Origin: Cochliopodium minus
Lineage: Eukaryota > Discosea > Himatismenida > Cochliopodiidae
Assembly (NCBI GenBank): GCA_024220525.1
Contig: JAMYWO010000223.1
Location: forward strand, 36,375-69,228
DNA length: 32,854 bases
Reading direction: 5' to 3'
Positions 3,001 through 32,695 of this stretch are shown piece by piece. The notes beneath the pieces are model-generated. The model did not search any database. It saw only the letters and a program-made list of their open reading frames with translations, and had not been told where the DNA came from. The first letter of the stretch is position 1; each line of letters starts with the position of its first letter. A program made the position numbers and the translations under genes.

Positions 3001-3549
3001 TCTTGCATATTTCTCATCGAAATTGTTTAATAATCCTCCTCTCATTGATATGTTACCTTTTTTTTTGATAATAAAAACAGATAAAGATAATTAAAAATAT
3101 TTATTTGGGATGAAAACTCCATGGATTTTTTTTATATTGTCTCCGAAACTCATAATTTAAAATCTGATATTGAGGATTTTATGTCTCCTCTTTCAATACA
3201 TACCATCAACCAATATTTGAACTGTATTTGATTTTGTTTGTTGAGGTCTATAATAGCTTTGATTCACCAACATTTGATGTTCTACTTGATCATCTTTCCT
3301 CCCATAATTGGAGATATGATAATTATCACTCACTCCCAATATCTTGACTTGCATGGGAGTGAGATTGAAGGATGAAGGATTAATATTTGGTTGGGAGTCA
3401 AATGAATAGAAATTCTCCTCTTCGAATTGGATCTGATCCAGATTTGGAGCTGAAGGCATCGTATTAAAAATATTTGATCCACAATAGTTGCAAAAATTTT
3501 GATTCATCTCCATCAATTGATAACCACAATTAGAACATGTATTCTCCAT
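13..3549 (-). CDS. Zinc ribbon-PH-collagen-like glycine-rich protein, 3' end outside window
   Basis: I rebuilt sixteen exons, all in phase: 3549-3204, 3056-2733, 2582-2258, 2059-1969, 1897-1852, 1584-1372, 1284-1258, 1196-1179, 1108-1040, 983-969, 900-883, 809-774, 722-637, 488-400, 333-319 and 174-13. The last is followed by a GTAAAC donor, so the gene continues off the left edge; at least 626 residues are visible. ATG 3549 is the first Met, followed at once by a C4 zinc ribbon (Cys5, 8, 20, 23). A PH-like domain covers about residues 116-250 and ends in the typical Trp helix (YEMQNWMSKLQKL). From about residue 350 the chain is Gly-X-X or GGDGG-type repeat, interrupted by a non-repetitive block (SLNGYESETLYINGSYEG). 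No signal peptide is seen, so a cytosolic, membrane-phosphoinositide-associated role is likelier than secretion; that is inference. I do not know this combination from a named family. Confidence 0.8.
1598..1655. repeat. Tandem heptamer TTTCAAA repeat in an intron
   Basis: About six perfect copies of the 7-bp unit TTTCAAA lie in the intron between exons 1584-1372 and 1897-1852 of the collagen-like gene. Degenerate copies continue to about 1770. The reverse complement, TTTGAAA followed by TAAAAA, recurs in other introns and spacers near 236, 5235, 7108, 11906 and 18238. Confidence 0.85.
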
Positions 3550-4803: not shown

Positions 4804-4924
4804 CAAAAATTTACCTTATTCAGTGGAAAATTTTGATCTTACAACCTCCACATTCTTTTGGATCTTCTTTGTCAAATTGGTATTTGAGAAGGCAAGTTTT
4901 CAGTCTTGAAATTAGGTTTTTTTT
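4804..4924 (-). pseudogene. Decayed copy of a FYVE-like gene exon end
   Basis: The reverse strand closely matches the 3' end of the exon at 30513-30805 of the FYVE-like gene, including its splice-donor context (GTAAATTT). Shared words include TCAAGACTGAAAACTTGCCT and GATCCAAAAGAATGTG. In this copy a 3-bp insertion and a net 8-bp loss break the frame, giving a TGA soon after the NFKTENLPS equivalent. A second stop falls just before the donor. Neither neighbouring exon is present. Because intronic sequence is retained, this is a DNA-level duplication and not a retrocopy. Confidence 0.75.
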
Positions 4925-5115
4925 GTTGTTTTGAATTCTCCAAAATTGGACTTTATTTGTAAAATTATCTTCGTTGGTTGATTAATCTTTAAAGTAAACA
5001 AAATTATATCTTTTACTTTCTTTTAAATATTTAATCAATTAATAATTAATTTTTGGACAAAGATAAATCAAAAAAAAATAGAGATGGAGTGTGAATTAAT
5101 AAATAAAAAGAGTTT

Positions 5116-6280
5116 TTATTTGTTTTTATTTTTATCACTTTTGAAAGTATAAATTGAACCCTTTGCAACCCATTCCTTATATAACTTGTCAGTTCCCATC
5201 AACCAATCCCTTTTTCAAAAGAAAAAAAATAAAAAATTTGAAATAAAAAATTTGAAATAAAAATTAAAATAAAATAAAAAAAATAAAAAAAAAAAAAATT
5301 TATTTTATTACCAAAAATGATATCCTCCAAAATTAGAATTTCTTCCATATTGATAATGATGAAAATCATGACTCTTTTTTTTGTTTTTTTTTAAAAAAAA
5401 GAATTAATATGTTTGTTAAATTAAAAAAAGAGAAAATTTTTTACTTTGGGACCTCCGTACAAAAAGTTTATCAATCTCAAAGGATGAAATGCTTTTTTAA
5501 AAAAATAATAAATAAATAATATAAAAAATAAAAAAAAATAATTTTTTTTTCAAACGTAAATAAAATCCAGAATGAGAATCTGTTGATCTCATTGTTCTAA
5601 AAGCGATCCAAATCTTTTTTTTTAATTTTAAGAAAAAAGATGATGTTAAAAAGATATCATGTTAAAAAAAAAAAAAAAGAAGAGAAATTACCCAATACGT
5701 GAAGATGTGACAACCTTGAAAATAACCCATCAAAAAAGGACCACTCATTAAAGGAAGAAGGAAATTGCTTTTATTTAAATAAAAATGAAATTAAAAAATG
5801 ATATAATATAAAATAAAAAAAAAAAAATAAAATGAAATAATTAAGAAATAAATGAAATAAAAATAAAAATAAAAATAAAAAAAATAAAATGAAAAAAAAT
5901 TTTACAATAAAAATTCAATTGGATGAGCAAGTTCCCCTGTTGTGGAATATGGAGCGGTGAATTTGTGGTGGACCTTGTGCACTTTGGCATACAAATATTT
6001 TGTGTGCATTAATCTGTGAACCCAATAAAACAAAGTGTCTTCCAAAATATTGAACACAATGAACTGGATCCAAAAAACTTTCCTATCATTAAATATAAAA
6101 TAAATAAAATAAAAAAAAATAAATAAAAAAATATTTTTTAAAGGTATACATGGTTGGTAAATTCTCTGTGGCGTAGAATCCAAAAAATCTTAGGAGTGGA
6201 TATGATAGTGTTGTTAGTGGAAGAAGTTGTATAAAATGATCTTTCAAAAGCTTGAAGAAATTATCCCATATCTCTTTCAT
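5116..6280 (-). CDS. C4-methylsterol oxidase / fatty acid hydroxylase family protein
   Basis: There are seven exons: 6280-6150, 6082-5906, 5767-5692, 5613-5556, 5491-5445, 5373-5312 and 5209-5116. They give 214 residues ending in TAA. The three histidine boxes of the membrane di-iron hydroxylase superfamily are intact: HRLMH (66-70), HKVHH (79-83) and HDFHH (165-169). The C-terminal DWLMGTD motif is typical of the sterol C4-methyl oxidase (ERG25/SMO) branch. Hydrophobic segments around residues 15-40, 46-64 and 100-125 fit an ER membrane protein. At 214 aa it is shorter at the N-terminus than yeast ERG25, with only a brief leader before the first box. The likely role is oxidation of the C4 methyl of sterol intermediates. 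A fatty acid or other sterol-desaturase substrate cannot be excluded from sequence alone. Confidence 0.87.
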
Positions 6281-6849: not shown

Positions 6850-8469
6850 TCAAAGCATATCAACATTAAAATTATTCAAAATAGTGTTTCTGGCTTGTAT
6901 TTCAAACCCATAAGAATTAGGGCGAGGAAACTGGTGTTTTTGTTGGAAATAAAGCTCATTGGAAAATCTTTTGCAGCAAAAAACAGAGTTTTTGAAGTCT
7001 TGGACAACAATGGTATGAACTTTTTCATCATTTTTGAGATCATCATGCATTTGATTGACACAAGAATTAAAACGAGAATAAGGAATTGTGTCTTCTCCCT
7101 TTTAAAAAAATTTGAAATAAAAATTTGAAATAAAAAATTTGAATTAAAAAATAAAAAATAAAAAATAAAAAATAAAAAATAAAAAATAAAAAATAAAAAA
7201 TAAAAAATAAAAATAGAATAAAAAANAAATAAAAAATAAAAAATAAAAAATAAAAAATAAAAAATAAAAAATAAAAAATAAAAAATAAAAAATAAAAAGT
7301 AATAAAAATAAATTAAAAATTTAGAAATAAAAAATAAAATAAATTATTTTTTTGATTTACTTTGCATTCAAGTTGAACCAAGCTTTCTTTGATTCTTGGT
7401 GCTTTGATTTTTTCAGAGGGAACAGGTGTCAAGCCACTTTGTTCTATTTCGGAAACACCATACTCAAAGTTTCCGCTACAATAATTGACTTGGCTCGAAA
7501 GGTGTTCTGTGCTGCTATTTACAACGAACCTAAAAAATTTATTAATTTTAAAAAATAAAGTTATAATTAAAGAAAATATATTGATTTGGAATTAAAAATA
7601 AAAATAAAAATAAAAATAAAAATAAAATAAAAATAAAAATAAAAAATATTAAAATTAAAAGAAAATAATGATAATGATAATGATAATAATAAAAATAAAA
7701 ATAAAAATAAAAATATTAAAATTAAAATTAAAATAAAATAATAAAAAATAAAAAATGAAAATAATTTTAGAGTTAATAATTAAACAATCAAAAATAAAAA
7801 ATAAAAAAATTATAAAAAAAATGAAAAAAATAAAACAAATTAGAAATAAGAAAAATAAAAATAAAAATTTTTTTACTCTCCAGTTTCTTTGTGAAGAAAT
7901 TTTTAATTTTGAATGTCATTTATTAAAAAAAAAAGAAAATTCTTTTTTTCTTTTTTTACCCAATATATTTCTCAATGTATCTTTATTATGAAAAAAAAGT
8001 TTTTAATTTTCGAATTATTCTCGAAATTCTTTTTGATCATTTTACCTTTTTCTGTTCCATCTTCTTTGTAGGAGAATGAGAGGGAGATGGTTGGTGGATT
8101 CTCGCTCACAACATTAAAGAATGAAAATGGCGCCAAATTTGTTTTTCCATCCTTGGAAATGGTGGAAACAAATGCAATAGGACGAGGGAGCTTAAAATAT
8201 TTCAAAATTATATTTAATTATTATTCAGAGAAATAAAAAAATAAAAAAAAATATATATCGTTATAAATCCTCAAATAGATTTTAAATTTATTTATCATTA
8301 GATTTACAACTGTTTGGATCATTGCAGAATATTTCTCAGATCTATTCATATTTTCCCAATCCAAGGTTATTGTTTCTTCTTTCACTTCGACCTTATCTCC
8401 TGGCTTCCAATCTTTATTTGGAGGTTCTATTTTAACTATTCTATCTGAATGGATTTTCTCTTCTTGCAT
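6850..8469 (-). CDS. Flavin reductase-like (FMN-binding split barrel) protein; C-terminal exon uncertain
   Basis: Exons are 8469-8308, 8190-8046, 7980-7960, 7886-7877 and 7529-7361, with a tentative last exon 7098-6850. The first five encode a recognisable flavin-reductase-like domain: LPRPIAFVSTISKDG, then NLAPFSFFNVVSENPPT, then KDTLRNILETGEFVVN, then a region ending in KESLVQLECK. This family binds FMN and is often of unassigned oxidoreductase function. The GETGE-like stretch requires a 10-nt microexon (7877-7886, reverse strand AAACTGGAGA) next to a 21-nt one; both fit phase and family consensus exactly. After VQLECK the usual barrel end is missing. The tentative exon (GEDTIPYSRFNS onward, stop TGA at 6850) fits in phase 0 but does not resemble the family. 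The intron before it holds the (AAAAAT)n array with an N, so missing exons are possible. Start chosen at ATG 8469, just inside a poly-A tract. Confidence 0.72.
7136..7330. repeat. (AAAAAT)n simple-sequence array with an ambiguous base
   Basis: About 25 or more tandem AAAAAT hexamers are interrupted once at 7214-7226, where the only N in the window sits (7226). The array lies in the last intron of the flavin-reductase-like gene. Length collapse or a bridged assembly gap is likely here. Confidence 0.9.
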
Positions 8470-9495
8470 TTTTTTTTTTTTTTTTTTCAATTTTTATTTT
8501 TTTTTCCCTCTTTGATTTAAAAATCAATCTCCTCTTTGTAAATTATTCTTTCCAAAAACTCCCGCTAAAGAAAAAAACTCCTATCAATCTAAATCTTTGA
8601 AATCCTTTTCAATTACTTTTTACCAACCTTTAAAAATTGCTTATCAATTTGTTTAGTGGAACTATTGTTAAAGAATTCAGTGGGTGGACAATTTTTTGAG
8701 AAATGACTTTAATTAATTTTAATAAGGTTGTTAAAGTTTGAAAATTTTTAATTTATTCAAATTAAGGATTGACCATCAAAAAAAAACATTTTGCTTTTGT
8801 AAAAAAGATGAAATCAAAAACTCAAAATCAACTTTGATAAATTGTCAAGAATTAGGAGAATCTCTTTTGGAAATAAAAAAAAAAAATGAAGAACAATAAA
8901 AATAACAGAAGGGGAAATAGCAATAATAACAATAATAATGGGAATAATAGTAATAAAAGAAAAGTTAATGAGGGATATTGGGTTGACAATAAAAAGAAAT
9001 TGGAAGAGTAAAAAAAAAAAAAAAATCAAACAGTGAATAAAAATTGAATAAAATTTAAACTCCATACTTGATTATACAACAAATATACCCAATATTCCAA
9101 AATTTATAAAATAAATAATTTTTTTTTGGCGCCATAAAATAATTAAATTCAATTCAGAATTTAATAAAAAATTTACCTAAATTTTTTTTTTTTTTTTACT
9201 TTTTCATTAAAAAATTGTTTAATTATATTCTCTCTTGCTTATTCCTTTTTGGAAACAAAATTAAAAAACAATGGTTTGTATTGCAGCTTTTAACTGCTTT
9301 CATCCTATTCCTGACAGGACATAAAACTCTGTTTATTCAGAATTTTATAAAAACAAAAAAATAATCTTAAAATAAAAAAATGATCTTAAACTCTGATCTT
9401 AAATAGAAAGCAAATATAGTTTATATTTTTTTATTTTTGATTGATAAATTTTCTTGTAAAATTTTCAATTTTTTTTATTTTTTTTAAATTTAAGA
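8470..9495. other. Kilobase spacer with coding-like scraps only
   Basis: This spacer lies between the starts of the flavin-reductase-like gene and the macro-domain gene. On the plus strand 8806-8900 reads as a plausible helical fragment (SKSTLINCQELGESLLEIKK) after an AG acceptor, ending in TAA. It is overlapped in another frame by a 41-codon Asn-rich ORF (8886-9011). No donor site links either to other exons. A 17-codon ORF at 9271 (MVCIAAFNCFHPIPDRT) is likewise unconnected. I see no tRNA or rRNA. Confidence 0.4.
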
Positions 9496-10390
9496 ATGTT
9501 CAAAGATCAATTAAGCCCAGAAATAATAAACGACATATATTTTGAGTGTGACAAAGACGTACAACTATGCATCAATAAAATCAGAAAGATGTTGAACATA
9601 GAAGAAGACAACTTTGAAACAGACACCGTAAACTCCACCAAACAAACTAAATTCACAATAGAAGAAATTGTTGGTGATTTATTTAAATGTGATGTAAACA
9701 GTTCAATGGCACATTGTAAAAAAAAAAAATTTAATTTTTTTAAAATAATTTTTTGATTTTTTTTTTTAAATTTTAATTCTTTTTTTTTAAAAGGTGTTTC
9801 TAAAGATCTTAAAATGAGTAAAGGAATAGCTGTTTTGTTTGTAAAAAAATTTGGAAGAGTGGATGAACTTGAAAATCAACACAAAGGTAATTTTTTTATT
9901 TTTTATTTTTATTATTGTTAAAATTTTTTTTTTTTTTTAAATTTTTTAATACTTTATTTTTAAAATACTTAAAAGGTATTGGAGAAAACGCAATATTGAA
10001 AGATAAGGAAAGGTTTGTTTTCTACATGATAACAAAGCTCAAATATTTCAACAAACCCACCATGCAATCTGTAAAACAGTGCCTCCAACATATGAAAGAG
10101 TTTATTCTTGAAAATGACATTAAAACGATGTCAATTGTAAAAAAAAATTTTTAAATTAAAAAATAAATTAAAATATAAATCAAAAAATAAATTAAAAAAA
10201 AATTTAAAAAAAAATTTTTTACAGCCAAGAATCGGATGGTAAATATTTTTTCTTGAATTATTATTAATTTTTATTTTTTTTTCAATTAAATTTAAGTGGT
10301 CTTGATGGTTTGTTGTGGACGAATGTTAAGAAAGCAATCATAGAAATTTTCGAAGATACAGATGTTTGTTTCAAAGTGTATCGAATTTAA
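9496..10390 (+). CDS. CUE-like domain fused to TARG1/OARD1-type macro domain
   Basis: Five exons (9496-9715, 9794-9886, 9976-10136, 10225-10238, 10297-10390) give 193 residues ending in TAA. Residues about 54-193 align along their length with human TARG1/OARD1 (C6orf130), which removes ADP-ribose from glutamate/aspartate and deacylates O-acetyl-ADP-ribose. The landmarks are VGDLFK, SMAHCVSKDLKMSKGIA, PRIGCGLD and the C-terminal CFKVYRI. The catalytic pair matching human K84 and D125 is present as Lys125 (MITK) and Asp166 (CGLD). The 14-nt exon 4 encodes exactly PRIG plus part of Cys163. The N-terminal ~36 residues (LSPEIINDIYFECDKDVQL onward) look like a CUE-type ubiquitin-binding three-helix bundle that human TARG1 lacks; that call rests on pattern only. 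Cytosolic or nuclear action is expected. The gene converges on the E2-F-box gene with 79 bp between stops. Confidence 0.88.
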
Positions 10391-26770: not shown

Positions 26771-27039
26771 AGAACTTATCTTAACTTGATAAATGAATAA
26801 TAATATTCTTTTTTTTTCAGTTAAATTATTTTTCTTTTCAAATTTCATTTATCAATATTTGAATCATTTATTATAGATTTGAATGATAAATGAATCAGGT
26901 CATTTTTTTTTGAATTTCAGTTATTTTCTCAATAATTTATTATTACGTATGATAAATAACTGTTTTATAAATTTAATAAATCGTTTTTTTTAAATGGCGC
27001 AAAAGAAGAAATTAAAACAAATAAATAATAAAAAAAAAA

Positions 27040-28299
27040 ATGGAATCATCTTTTATTACAATTGGAGCTGCTATATGTATTGGAATTGCTGGAATGATAT
27101 ATTTGATTTATAATCAAGTTTCACAAATTATGTATATGAGAAGAAAGAGAAGGGAAATGTCAGAAAAGGAAACAAAAGAAAATGTAACCACAAAAATTAC
27201 AAACGTAACGGAAAAATTTGAAAACATACAAGAAGAAAAAGAAACAACACCTTTAAGAATAGAAACAAGGAAAACAAACTTTGTAGTTGAAAAAGAAAAA
27301 GAAATTGAAGAAATAATCGAAACTGTAAATACCATGAGTGCTCTTCCTTTAATTGAAGAACTCAATGTAGTTGTACAAAATCAGATTGTTGTTGAAGAAG
27401 TTAAGCCTGTTCAAGAACGTATCCATACTGAGAAAACACAGGAAGAGGAATCATTTGAGGTGAACATGAATACATCCTTCACTGAAATCCCCAAGCCTAA
27501 ATTGAGATTCACAGAGAACAGATTGACTGATTTCAAAAATAAATTCGATTCTCTCTCAGAGAAATTGGAGGAAAAAATAAACAACAATTATTACACCCCC
27601 CAAATAGAAAAGACCAACAGCATGAAGTATACTTTCACCACCATTAAGCAACACAATGATAGTCTTGATGATATTGAATCTTCCATTGATGAGGACTTCC
27701 CACATGAACTTCATCCATCTGCACCTATAACTACCGAGAAAAATTTATTCAGATTATTTGCACAAGATGAGAATTATGGAGAAATGCCTTCCAACGATTC
27801 TCCTTCTCGCATCAAAGAAAGCATAATTGATGAAAGCGAGAAAGTATCAAACAAAGTGACCATCTCTGATAAGATCATAGAGGAGCTGGATTCTGACGAG
27901 GATTCTGATTTCAACGAGAAAGTGGAAGAAGAAAAAGAAAAACAACAATCTGAAGAAGAAGAGGAGGAAGATGTGATTTCCAGCGAAGTTGATGAAAAGG
28001 AAGAAAGTGAGGAAGAAGAATTGAAGAAAAGAAAAACAAAAGCAACCAAGAAGGATTCTTCTCGCAGAAAAACTGTCTCCGCTTTTATCGAACCTGAAAC
28101 TCCTCCTCAAAGAAAAAAAACTACTTCTGCTTCTGCCAAGAAGAAAAGCTCGAAGGATAAGGAGAATATCTCTTCCAATTCTAAATCCAGCAGACATTCC
28201 ATCTCTTCTTCTACCACCCAAACTCCAAATTCTTCGAGGGTTCTCCGTGATAGAAAATCCATCAAGACTCCTCGTCGTCAAGATTACGAATATTATTAA
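27040..28299 (+). CDS. Single-pass membrane protein with acidic and basic low-complexity tail
   Basis: This intron-free ORF of 419 codons starts at an ATG preceded by an A-rich leader. Residues 6-24 (ITIGAAICIGIAGMIYLIY) form a transmembrane segment followed at once by YMRRKRR, which predicts an N-out/C-in signal anchor. The body is mostly disordered: coiled-coil-prone stretches (FKNKFDSLSEKLEEKI), an acidic block near residues 285-330 (EEEEEED), then a basic Ser/Thr/Pro-rich tail with many SSRR and PPQRKK patches and a C-terminal TPRRQDYEYY. The basic tail could bind nucleic acid or chromatin, making an inner-nuclear-membrane or cortical tether conceivable. That is inference, and no family is recognised. 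The architecture resembles the protein at 28814-29739. Confidence 0.8.
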   Translation: MESSFITIGAAICIGIAGMIYLIYNQVSQIMYMRRKRREMSEKETKENVTTKITNVTEKFENIQEEKETTPLRIETRKTNFVVEKEKEIEEIIETVNTMSALPLIEELNVVVQNQIVVEEVKPVQERIHTEKTQEEESFEVNMNTSFTEIPKPKLRFTENRLTDFKNKFDSLSEKLEEKINNNYYTPQIEKTNSMKYTFTTIKQHNDSLDDIESSIDEDFPHELHPSAPITTEKNLFRLFAQDENYGEMPSNDSPSRIKESIIDESEKVSNKVTISDKIIEELDSDEDSDFNEKVEEEKEKQQSEEEEEEDVISSEVDEKEESEEEELKKRKTKATKKDSSRRKTVSAFIEPETPPQRKKTTSASAKKKSSKDKENISSNSKSSRHSISSSTTQTPNSSRVLRDRKSIKTPRRQDYEYY

Positions 28300-29844: not shown

Positions 29845-32695
29845 TTAGTTAAAATAAGAAGAATTCACAACTTCATTTTCACAGGCTGTACAAATTGGAT
29901 TGGATCCTCTCAAACATGGAACATTCAAACCAATCTTGTTGACACAACTCTCACAAAAGACTTGACCACAAAAATGACAATTCACTGGTTTCTTTGATAA
30001 GAGTCCACTCAACTTGTTATTACAAGTAGATGTCGAACATTTTTTGACACCAACAGGAGTCTTGAGTTCAAGTGAGAATTTGGTTTTGATACAAGGACTG
30101 CAAACTCTTTGTGGATCTTTGAAATTGTTGATAAATATTTTCCATGTACAATTTTCGCAAAAATGGTCTCCACAAACTAAAATTTTCATAAAAAAAAAAA
30201 TAATTAAAAATAAGAATAATAAAGTTTTTAGGATTTACCTTTGCATTCTTTTTTTGATTTTCCACTTATTTTGGTTTTGCAAGTTGAACAATTATTCGAA
30301 CTCTCTATTTTCTCAGGTAAAAGAGTAACTTTTCTGTAGCAAGGGGCACAAACTTTTTCATTTTTCAAAGAACCAGTTTTGTAAAGAAGGATATTATTGG
30401 AACAGCAATCTTTGCAGAAAAATTTGACGCAATTCTGACAAGGAACAGGTCTATAAAAGATTAATAATTAATTTTTAAAAAGAATTTTTTAATAAAAAAC
30501 AAAAAAATTTACCCTTTAAAAGTTGAAAATTTTGTTTTACAGCCTTCACATTCTTTTGGATCTTTGTCGAATTGGATGTCAGTTACTTCAGAAGGCAAGT
30601 TTTCAGTCTTGAAATTGGGGTTTTTCTCATTTTTGGGTTTTTCTGAAACTTCCAAGAAAGGAAAGGAAATGTGGGAAAGTTCTGTGATGGAAATTTGAGT
30701 TCCTTTTTTCTTCTCCCTTTCTGTGCTGTTAAGAATTTTATTTGTAATTGGTTCCCTTCTCTTTTTTTCTTGTTTGTTTGAGTATTTATTGTCCAATTTC
30801 AGAAACTTTTAATTAGCAATTAAAAAATAATAAAAAAATTAAAATGATCATTTTTAAGAAGATTTGAAAATAAAAAATAAAAAAACTAATTTTTTTTTAA
30901 ATGAATAAAGTCTCCCTATTTTACAATGAAAGAAAAAAAATAAATCAATCAAAAATTAATTATTAAATAAATCAAAACTAAGAATTGAAACAAATAAATA
31001 AAAAGAAGAATTAAAATAAAAACATGAATTCAAATTGAAATAATGGAAATATTGAAATAAATTTTTTTTTTTTTAAAAATGAAAAAATGAAAATAAATTT
31101 AAATGAATCAAAAATAATTTTTTTTTAAACAAAAATCAAAACAAATAAATTAATAAAAAAATAAAAAATTATTGTTACTCTGTAGATATTTTCTCTTATT
31201 ATGGCCAACTCATTCTTTTTTTCAGAACTGTCAAAAAATCCAGACTGTCCTTTCACCAATTTACTTGTATATACAAGTTGGGAGATTCTGTTGATAGCGG
31301 AGGCAGGGTCTTCCATTTTTTTGAGGAATTTGTTGGAGTCTATTTGATTGACGTTTGCTCCAGAAAAAGAGTTGAATTCATCTTCTGATGAAATTGTTTT
31401 GGTTTCATTGAAAAGCTCTGAATTTAAATCCTAAAAAAAATTTATGAACAATAAAAATAAGATAAAATAAAAAATTAATATAAATTTAATAAAAGATTAA
31501 AAATTAAAAATTAAAAATTAAAATTTAAAAAAAATAAAAATCAAATTAATAAATGAAATAAAGTTGAAATTTTTATTAATAGAAAAAAAAATAAGATTAT
31601 CAAAATATTGATTAAAAAAATAAAAAATTAAATTTGACTTTAAAAAATAAAAATTTAAATATTTTAAGAAAATCATAAATAAAATATTAATAATAAAATA
31701 TTAAAGAATTAAATTAATAAAAATTAGAAAAGACTTTACTTTAGAAATGCATTTAATAGCACAAGCAAACTCATTGAATTTAGGCAAGTTCATATCAAAA
31801 GAATATTTGTACTCCAAAAATAATTCTTCTTGCATCGTGATGCAGATGAGTTCTGTCATACTCAACAAAGATCCGTTTGAGAGTTTTATTTTCCATGTGT
31901 TCACTTTGTTTTTGCTTTCAATCAAAAATACTCTGTGTGAAATTGATGATCCTTTTTAAATAAAAAAAAAATTAAAAAAAATTAAAAAAATTAAAAAAAT
32001 TAAAAAAATTAAAAAAATTAAAAAAATTAAAAAAAAAAATTAATTAAAAAAATTAAAAATTAAAATTAAAATAAAAAATTAAATAAAAAAATATTGATAG
32101 TTAATTTTTTTTTTTTACCCAATAAAAATCCACATAAAGCAGAAAAAAGGGGAGATTCACAAGAAATCACTTGATTATCGAGAGAATCAATGACGACATG
32201 TCCGTTTTGTTGAATGGGAATGTTTTCGAGAGGGATGTCATCCAACACAACTTTTTCAGTGAAATTTCTTGTTTGTTGAGAATGAAAAGTCTTTTCGTTT
32301 TGAAGAAGATTTTCATCAACATTTTTCGAGAACCATTGTTCAAATTCTTTAAAAAATTTTTTTTTTAAAATAAAATTATTAAAATAATTAAAATTAAATT
32401 TTTTAAAATTATTAAAATTATTAAAATTATTAAAATTAAATTTTTTTTTTTTTTTTAACCTTTTGTTCCTATGTTTGAAGTATTTTCTTTTTTCATACAA
32501 ATAAATTTGGTAGTTTTTGGTAATGGACACTTCATTACGTCGAGAACACCATAGTAGTATTTGGCAGTGGCGTAATGGTCGAATCTCATGTTTATCTGTT
32601 TCACTCTGTATTGGAAAAGAAAATCTGTTTTTTCTAATTCATTGATCACATTTTGAGCTTCTGTTAGTGCATCCTCTGTTTTAGGTTTCGAAATT
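29845..32695 (-). CDS. Protein with three tandem FYVE-like zinc fingers, 5' end outside window
   Basis: Seven exons are visible (32695-32460, 32346-32119, 31951-31740, 31430-31179, 30805-30513, 30450-30239, 30176-29845), all in phase; the first starts with an acceptor, so more exons lie beyond the right edge. About 588 residues are visible. The N-terminal half (VINELEKTDFLFQYRVKQIN; GFLLGSSISHRVFLIE) is unassigned and could be a folded globular domain. The C-terminal ~230 residues hold three successive eight-Cys FYVE-type fingers: CEGCKTKFSTFKGPVPCQNC with FFCKDC; CSTCKTKISGKSKKECKVCG with HFCENC; and CSTSTCNNKL with NCHFCGQVFCESC. None has the basic (R/K)(R/K)HHCR patch that binds PI3P, so lipid binding is doubtful; protein binding at membranes is as likely. 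A damaged copy of part of exon 5 lies at 4804-4924. Confidence 0.82.
31960..32045. repeat. Tandem ATTAAAAAA nonamer repeat in an intron
   Basis: About six copies of a 9-bp unit (ATTAAAAAA) in tandem, in the intron between exons 32346-32119 and 31951-31740 of the FYVE-like gene. Confidence 0.85.
32347..32459. repeat. ATTATTAAA-type tandem repeat intron
   Basis: This intron of the FYVE-like gene is built mainly of ATTATTAAA/ATTAAATTT-type 9-bp units. In one frame it stays open and yields Asn/Phe runs that are not protein. Confidence 0.75.

Follow-up and report, generated by a model that had tools for sequence, protein, structure and literature searches.

A TARG1-type ADP-ribosyl hydrolase of Cochliopodium minus with a possible diverged CUE/UBA-like module at its N-terminus

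Human TARG1 (C6orf130/OARD1) has about a dozen residues before its macro domain. Its catalytic residues are given as Lys84 and Asp125 in the accessible part of one account (PMC9411070), and the family is described, in the available portion of another, as less widespread and sporadic among eukaryotes (PMC4245714). According to excerpts of a further study, ubiquitin and ADP-ribose are found directly joined on proteins, and human TARG1 takes off PARP10 mono-ADP-ribosylation and frees ubiquitin together with ADP-ribose (PMC12000418). The part of a different study available to us reports weak activity of human TARG1 on Glu-ADPr-Ub (PMC13061329). Among CUE domains, work on SMARCAD1, again as far as the accessible text goes, indicates that ubiquitin cannot be bound without both the MFP and the di-leucine motif, and that CUE1 of this protein binds a partner other than ubiquitin (PMC6688830). 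A literature search, with most subscription papers and preprints outside its scope, returned no paper containing both TARG1 and a CUE domain, or both C6orf130 and CUE.

The gene described here lies in a window (the whole stretch of DNA analysed, 32,854 nucleotides, G+C 24.6%) that corresponds to positions 36375-69228 of contig 223 in the Cochliopodium minus assembly (44,654,751 bases, 598 contigs). After removal of four GT..AG introns, 9496-10390 encodes 193 residues, and a macro domain of the TARG1 type occupies roughly 9652-10390. Residues 54-192 of this reading align without gaps to human C6orf130/TARG1 (PDB 2lgr; phmmer E 2.9e-40), and 68 of the 139 positions are identical (49%). Human Lys84 and Asp125 are kept as Lys125 and Asp166, as are Ser35, Gly123 and the PRIGCGLD loop; we assume an offset between the PDB chain and human numbering, which is borne out by the residues found. 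The Pfam Macro model gave 22.5 bits to this reading and 21.9 bits to the 234-residue reading proposed below, the latter just under the cut-off of 22. On sequence grounds the macro half is securely assigned to the TARG1-type ADP-ribosyl hydrolases, and the alignment confirmed both the TARG1 call and the catalytic set, Lys125 and Asp166, of a first-pass annotation of this DNA.

A protein search with the TARG1 gene gave four matches in the genome, all at its own locus (three candidates scored), and this is the only copy found in the 44.65 Mb eukaryotic assembly. The Pfam Macro model had 12 matches across the genome in a six-frame search; the gene at 9496-10390 was missing from them, and such searches therefore overlook real members that are split into exons. 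The same genome gave 23 PARP matches, so the ADP-ribose mark is probably written there. For the Deltex DTC domain there was no match in the genome, but the control genomes were likewise without one, so that this negative carries no information. At three loci (C50:45611-47227, C120:4750-6345 and C167:19067-20639) Macro and PARP matches share a strand and fall within some 1.6 kb, which suggests a family of macro-PARP proteins with what we take to be a PARP9/14-like architecture.

The first-pass annotation placed the start of the gene at the ATG at 9496. Its most likely start is at 8886 instead, and a six-exon model spanning 8886-10390 and coding for 234 residues is likely, with the following features.

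8886..9007, + strand: exon 1, probable first coding exon, MKNNKNNRRGN..NKRKVNEGYWVDNKKKLE plus 2 bases of the next codon
9008..9494, + strand: proposed first intron, 487 nt, GTAAAA...TTTAAATTTAAG
9209..9325, + strand: end of a dispersed repeat inside the proposed first intron, with matches elsewhere in the genome
9495..9715, + strand: exon 2, CUE-like helices (MFKDQLSPEIINDIYFECDKDVQLCINKIRKML), linker and start of the macro domain, from translation and hhalign to the CUE profile
9794..9886, + strand: exon 3, macro domain, aligned to C6orf130
9976..10136, + strand: exon 4, macro domain with the catalytic Lys (Lys125 of 193, Lys166 of 234), from the C6orf130 alignment
10225..10238, + strand: exon 5, PRIG(C) of the PRIGCGLD loop, from the C6orf130 alignment
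10297..10390, + strand: exon 6, catalytic Asp (Asp166 of 193, Asp207 of 234) to the stop codon, from the C6orf130 alignment

The ATG at 8886 follows a poly-A run, and the stop codon of its frame (9009-9011) overlaps the GTAAAA donor at 9008. Excising 9008-9494 joins the exons in phase to read ...VDNKKKLEE-MFKDQLSPEII..., and it is from these signals that we infer the splicing of the first exon, which encodes an Asn-rich tail and a candidate CUE helix 1. The new exon puts KKKLEE before MFKDQL, the expected place of that helix. The proposed donor begins as do introns 1 and 3 of this gene, and the acceptor resembles that of intron 4; the sequence preceding the ATG at 9496 ends ...TTTTTTAAATTTAAG, as does intron 4 of the same gene. 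The previously annotated 9496-10390 stretch does belong to the gene, but the start had probably been misplaced and the upstream exon with the candidate helix 1 missed. Two start codons of the window, at 3549 (-) and 9496 (+), are directly preceded by acceptor-like sequence (TTTTTTCAG and AAATTTAAG, each immediately before the A), and 5' introns may accordingly be common in the genome and first exons readily overlooked.

Coding potential was scored with a codon model trained on eight coding stretches of the window, a small training set, against a null of non-coding stretches that were also used in training the model and included parts of the proposed intron. Exon 8886-9007 scored 0.90 bits per codon, and the highest value for 224 non-coding stretches of 120 nt was -0.19; 9496-9591 scored 0.96, and the highest value for 268 such stretches of 96 nt was 0.21. 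A second frame of the upstream exon is also positive (0.64), and its last 18 codons alone (0.76) fall under the 1.01 of the top-scoring one among 390 non-coding 54-nt stretches. It is very probable that the N-terminal extension codes for protein.

The proposed first intron is 487 nt long, versus 58-89 nt for the other four, and the repeat end within it explains part of this length. The repeat at 9209-9325 had 40 scored matches among 78 candidates, this copy included, the other 39 being 81-94% identical; at least four of eight aligned copies run on into a longer shared element, which is partly masked. Other genome matches to 8480-9200 lie for the most part in the Asn-codon stretch and in simple A/T-rich sequence, and those to exon 8886-9007 cover mainly the former, so that this exon does not represent a repeat copy. 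A block at 9205-9375, considered as a coding exon or an RNA, was ruled out, as it holds the dispersed repeat end; Rfam gave no match to 9100-9500 at E up to 5.

A CUE pattern had been proposed for the extension in the first-pass annotation, with a Pfam search as its check. The Pfam CUE model (PF02845), with HMMER filters on, had no hit at E up to 10 in six sequences, two from the short and four from the long gene model. Across the genome the same model matched 15 places, five of them over the cut-off and none at this locus, in a six-frame search that cannot join two exons. One locus with a CUE match over the cut-off, L021 (C17:263060-263170), lies in a long open frame that by eye contains more CUE-like stretches; it also has a coiled coil and an end resembling, by eye, a SKICH/CALCOCO-type domain. 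With small CUE models in HMMER the short region scored 0.6, 0.9 and 2.0 bits, values also attained by 283 of 2000, 156 of 1000 and 283 of 2000 shuffles, and the region with the upstream exon scored 1.7 and 0.9 bits (367 and 301 of 3000 shuffles); with a longer stretch, 2847 and 494 of 3000 shuffles reached the score of the region. When known CUEs were put to the HMMER test, all 12 whole domains beat all 1000 shuffles, and 11 of the 12 did so when trimmed near F; a smaller test recognised seven of eight whole and six of eight cut domains. The failure of HMMER here is perhaps due to an inserted residue. A PDB search with the N-terminal region returned only noise (KRE28, E 2.9; THR2, E 0.17).

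A CUE-like signal was obtained with hhalign, using a profile of 12 CUEs of which four came from this genome and eight from elsewhere. The 52-residue extended region scored 19.2 (probability 39.5); its alignment covers 33 of the 37 columns and keeps the CUE register, with three helices in order and one inserted residue after MF. This score was reached by none of 200 and one of 1500 shuffles (1/1700 in total) and by none of the 385 segments taken as controls from open frames of this genome, frequencies that are optimistic and overstate significance, because the region had been chosen for its CUE-like look. The control segments are open frames from any of the six frames rather than verified proteins; L009-L013 (the TARG1 gene), L021-L024 (CUE loci) and any frame that was shorter than 110 aa, contained X or was of low complexity were left out, and all 385 others were scored. 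A 10-row alignment gave a score of 20.4 (probability 37.3, 35 columns), and without the upstream exon the score was 14.9 over 25 of 37 columns, reached by 2 of 200 shuffles. All 12 known CUEs, each compared with the other 11, outscore the region (24.1-58.2). Seven UBA domains scored 11.5-19.6 against the CUE profile, which overlaps the score of the region, so that CUE and UBA are not separable by score. The upstream exon was found by splice signals, yet it supplies LEE before MF, a partly independent success for the CUE fold. Judged from these profiles, the chances that the N-terminus forms a CUE/UBA-like three-helix fold appear about even. What stands of the originally proposed CUE pattern is a weak hhalign signal in the CUE register, clear only with the upstream exon; it goes unseen by Pfam and by the small HMMER models, and lies below every known CUE of the set.

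At the positions that would contact ubiquitin, hhalign places MFK in the extension where CUE domains read MFP, and the LL columns align to IR, with Arg for the second Leu. Of the 12 CUE sequences compared, 11 retain the Pro of MFP; in TAB2 and TAB3 the LL columns read LS, and the LL change alone is thus not decisive. With both contact motifs altered, ubiquitin binding by the predicted module is not supported, and the targeting to ubiquitinated substrates put forward in the first-pass annotation, though possible, gains no support from these residues.

The explanation we prefer, to which we would give an even chance, is that of a 234-residue TARG1-type hydrolase in which an Asn-rich and presumably disordered N-terminal tail would be followed by a diverged CUE/UBA-like three-helix module with a docking role, a short linker and the macro domain. 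By analogy with human TARG1, the macro domain most likely cleaves ADP-ribose off Glu/Asp esters, and perhaps off nucleic acid, through its Lys/Asp pair. The extension would most likely dock on a partner protein and so recruit the hydrolase to it. Docking in this general sense is favoured because the ubiquitin-contact motifs are altered and a SMARCAD1 CUE binds another partner; ubiquitin would be one candidate and not the default, and we hold it to be an improbable one.

Two alternatives concern what the extension is and does. As a special case of the docking explanation, the CUE-like module may bind ubiquitin or ubiquitin-ADP-ribose and so steer TARG1 to ubiquitinated or mono-ADP-ribosyl-ubiquitylated targets, which we think unlikely. 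The CUE-like profile signal in hhalign would fit such a role, and added ubiquitin affinity would be sensible in an enzyme that is weak on Glu-ADPr-Ub, as human TARG1 appears from the available part of PMC13061329; against it stand the Lys of MFK, the Arg at the second Leu of motifs that the accessible text of PMC6688830 treats as essential, a Pro missing here that nearly all CUE rows retain, and the precedent in that same text of a CUE with a non-ubiquitin partner. Alternatively, the extension could be a helical or partly disordered, lineage-specific region that is not a CUE and has no ubiquitin-related ancestry, which is quite possible, if a little short of even. The negative HMMER tests and the lack of anything above noise in Pfam and PDB point this way, no second copy was found in the genome, and none of the five bacterial and viral relatives that were fetched carries such an extension. 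Against this reading, the hhalign signal beats all the segments and all shuffles but one, with three helices in order, and helix 1 is completed by an exon found through splice signals.

A further alternative, compatible with either fold, is that the gene begins only at 9496 or at Met33, that 8886-9007 lies outside it, and that this TARG1 has 193 or 161 residues. GGCGCC occurs at 9128-9133, within the proposed first intron, and a GGCGC core at 26996-27000, 44 bases before an ATG at 27040; we take GGCGC(C) to be an E2F-like core, and its presence at these two places makes an internal promoter, and hence a 193-residue form, possible. The length of the proposed intron relative to the others also fits a short gene. 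However, 8886-9007 is coding-like and in phase, with a stop that overlaps a donor, the sequence before 9496 ends as intron 4 does, and a start at Met33 is at odds with the coding-like character of 9496-9591; we regard the shorter gene as rather doubtful. A third GGCGC place in the window (8129-8134) falls inside a flavin-reductase-like exon (7975-8217 (-), E 8.8e-6, just under the cut-off), the other two being outside recognised coding frames. Elsewhere in the window, a fatty acid hydroxylase is found at 5905-6189 (-) (E 2.8e-12), and the frames at 4823-4981 (-) and 30512-30808 (-) have by eye a common motif, DKEDPKECGGCKIKI and DKDPKECEGCKTKF, and are perhaps paralogous zinc-finger genes, one at each end of the window.

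If the module belongs to a ubiquitin-related family, the preferred 234-residue hydrolase would be a natural TARG1 in which to test whether evolution has made a dedicated eraser of the hybrid mark; if it does not, the protein is a plain TARG1 that carries a tail peculiar to its lineage. In the most specific version, for which the chances seem slim, a diverged CUE fused to TARG1 would recognise, through a non-canonical surface, ADP-ribose-linked ubiquitin or ubiquitin on an ADP-ribosylated target, and would remove both marks at once by cutting the Glu/Asp-ADP-ribose link.

Set beside known systems, the extension resembles CUE domains (PF02845; Tollip, VPS9, AMFR/gp78, ASCC2, AUP1 and TAB2 in the PDB) in the order and spacing of hydrophobic residues in three helices and in an LxxMF at the end of helix 1, and differs from them in the one-residue insertion after MF, the missing Pro and the Arg at the second Leu of LL. 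UBA domains are of similar length, but the extension is by eye without their MGF-type loop, and against a profile of the seven UBA sequences the region scores 14.5 (probability 4.4), less than on the CUE profile. Scans that started from a two-sequence alignment confirmed as relatives one of 217 pattern matches in bacterial and archaeal genomes (L035, Paenibacillus) and four of 97 in viral contigs (L036-L039, IMG/VR); a separate search of viral contigs for relatives of the 193-residue protein confirmed none. These TARG1-like macrodomains, a handful and not a survey, are 26-41% identical in the macro domain, and in all five the match is preceded by 12 residues or fewer, even on a stop-to-stop count; L038 and L039 are by eye without the ITK catalytic lysine and more distant. 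With human TARG1 (PDB 2lgr, 2eee, 2l8r, 4j5q, 4j5r) the protein has the catalytic pair and the PRIGCGLD loop in common, and it differs in the length that precedes the aligned part, which is 94 residues in the 234-residue model and 53 in the 193-residue reading.
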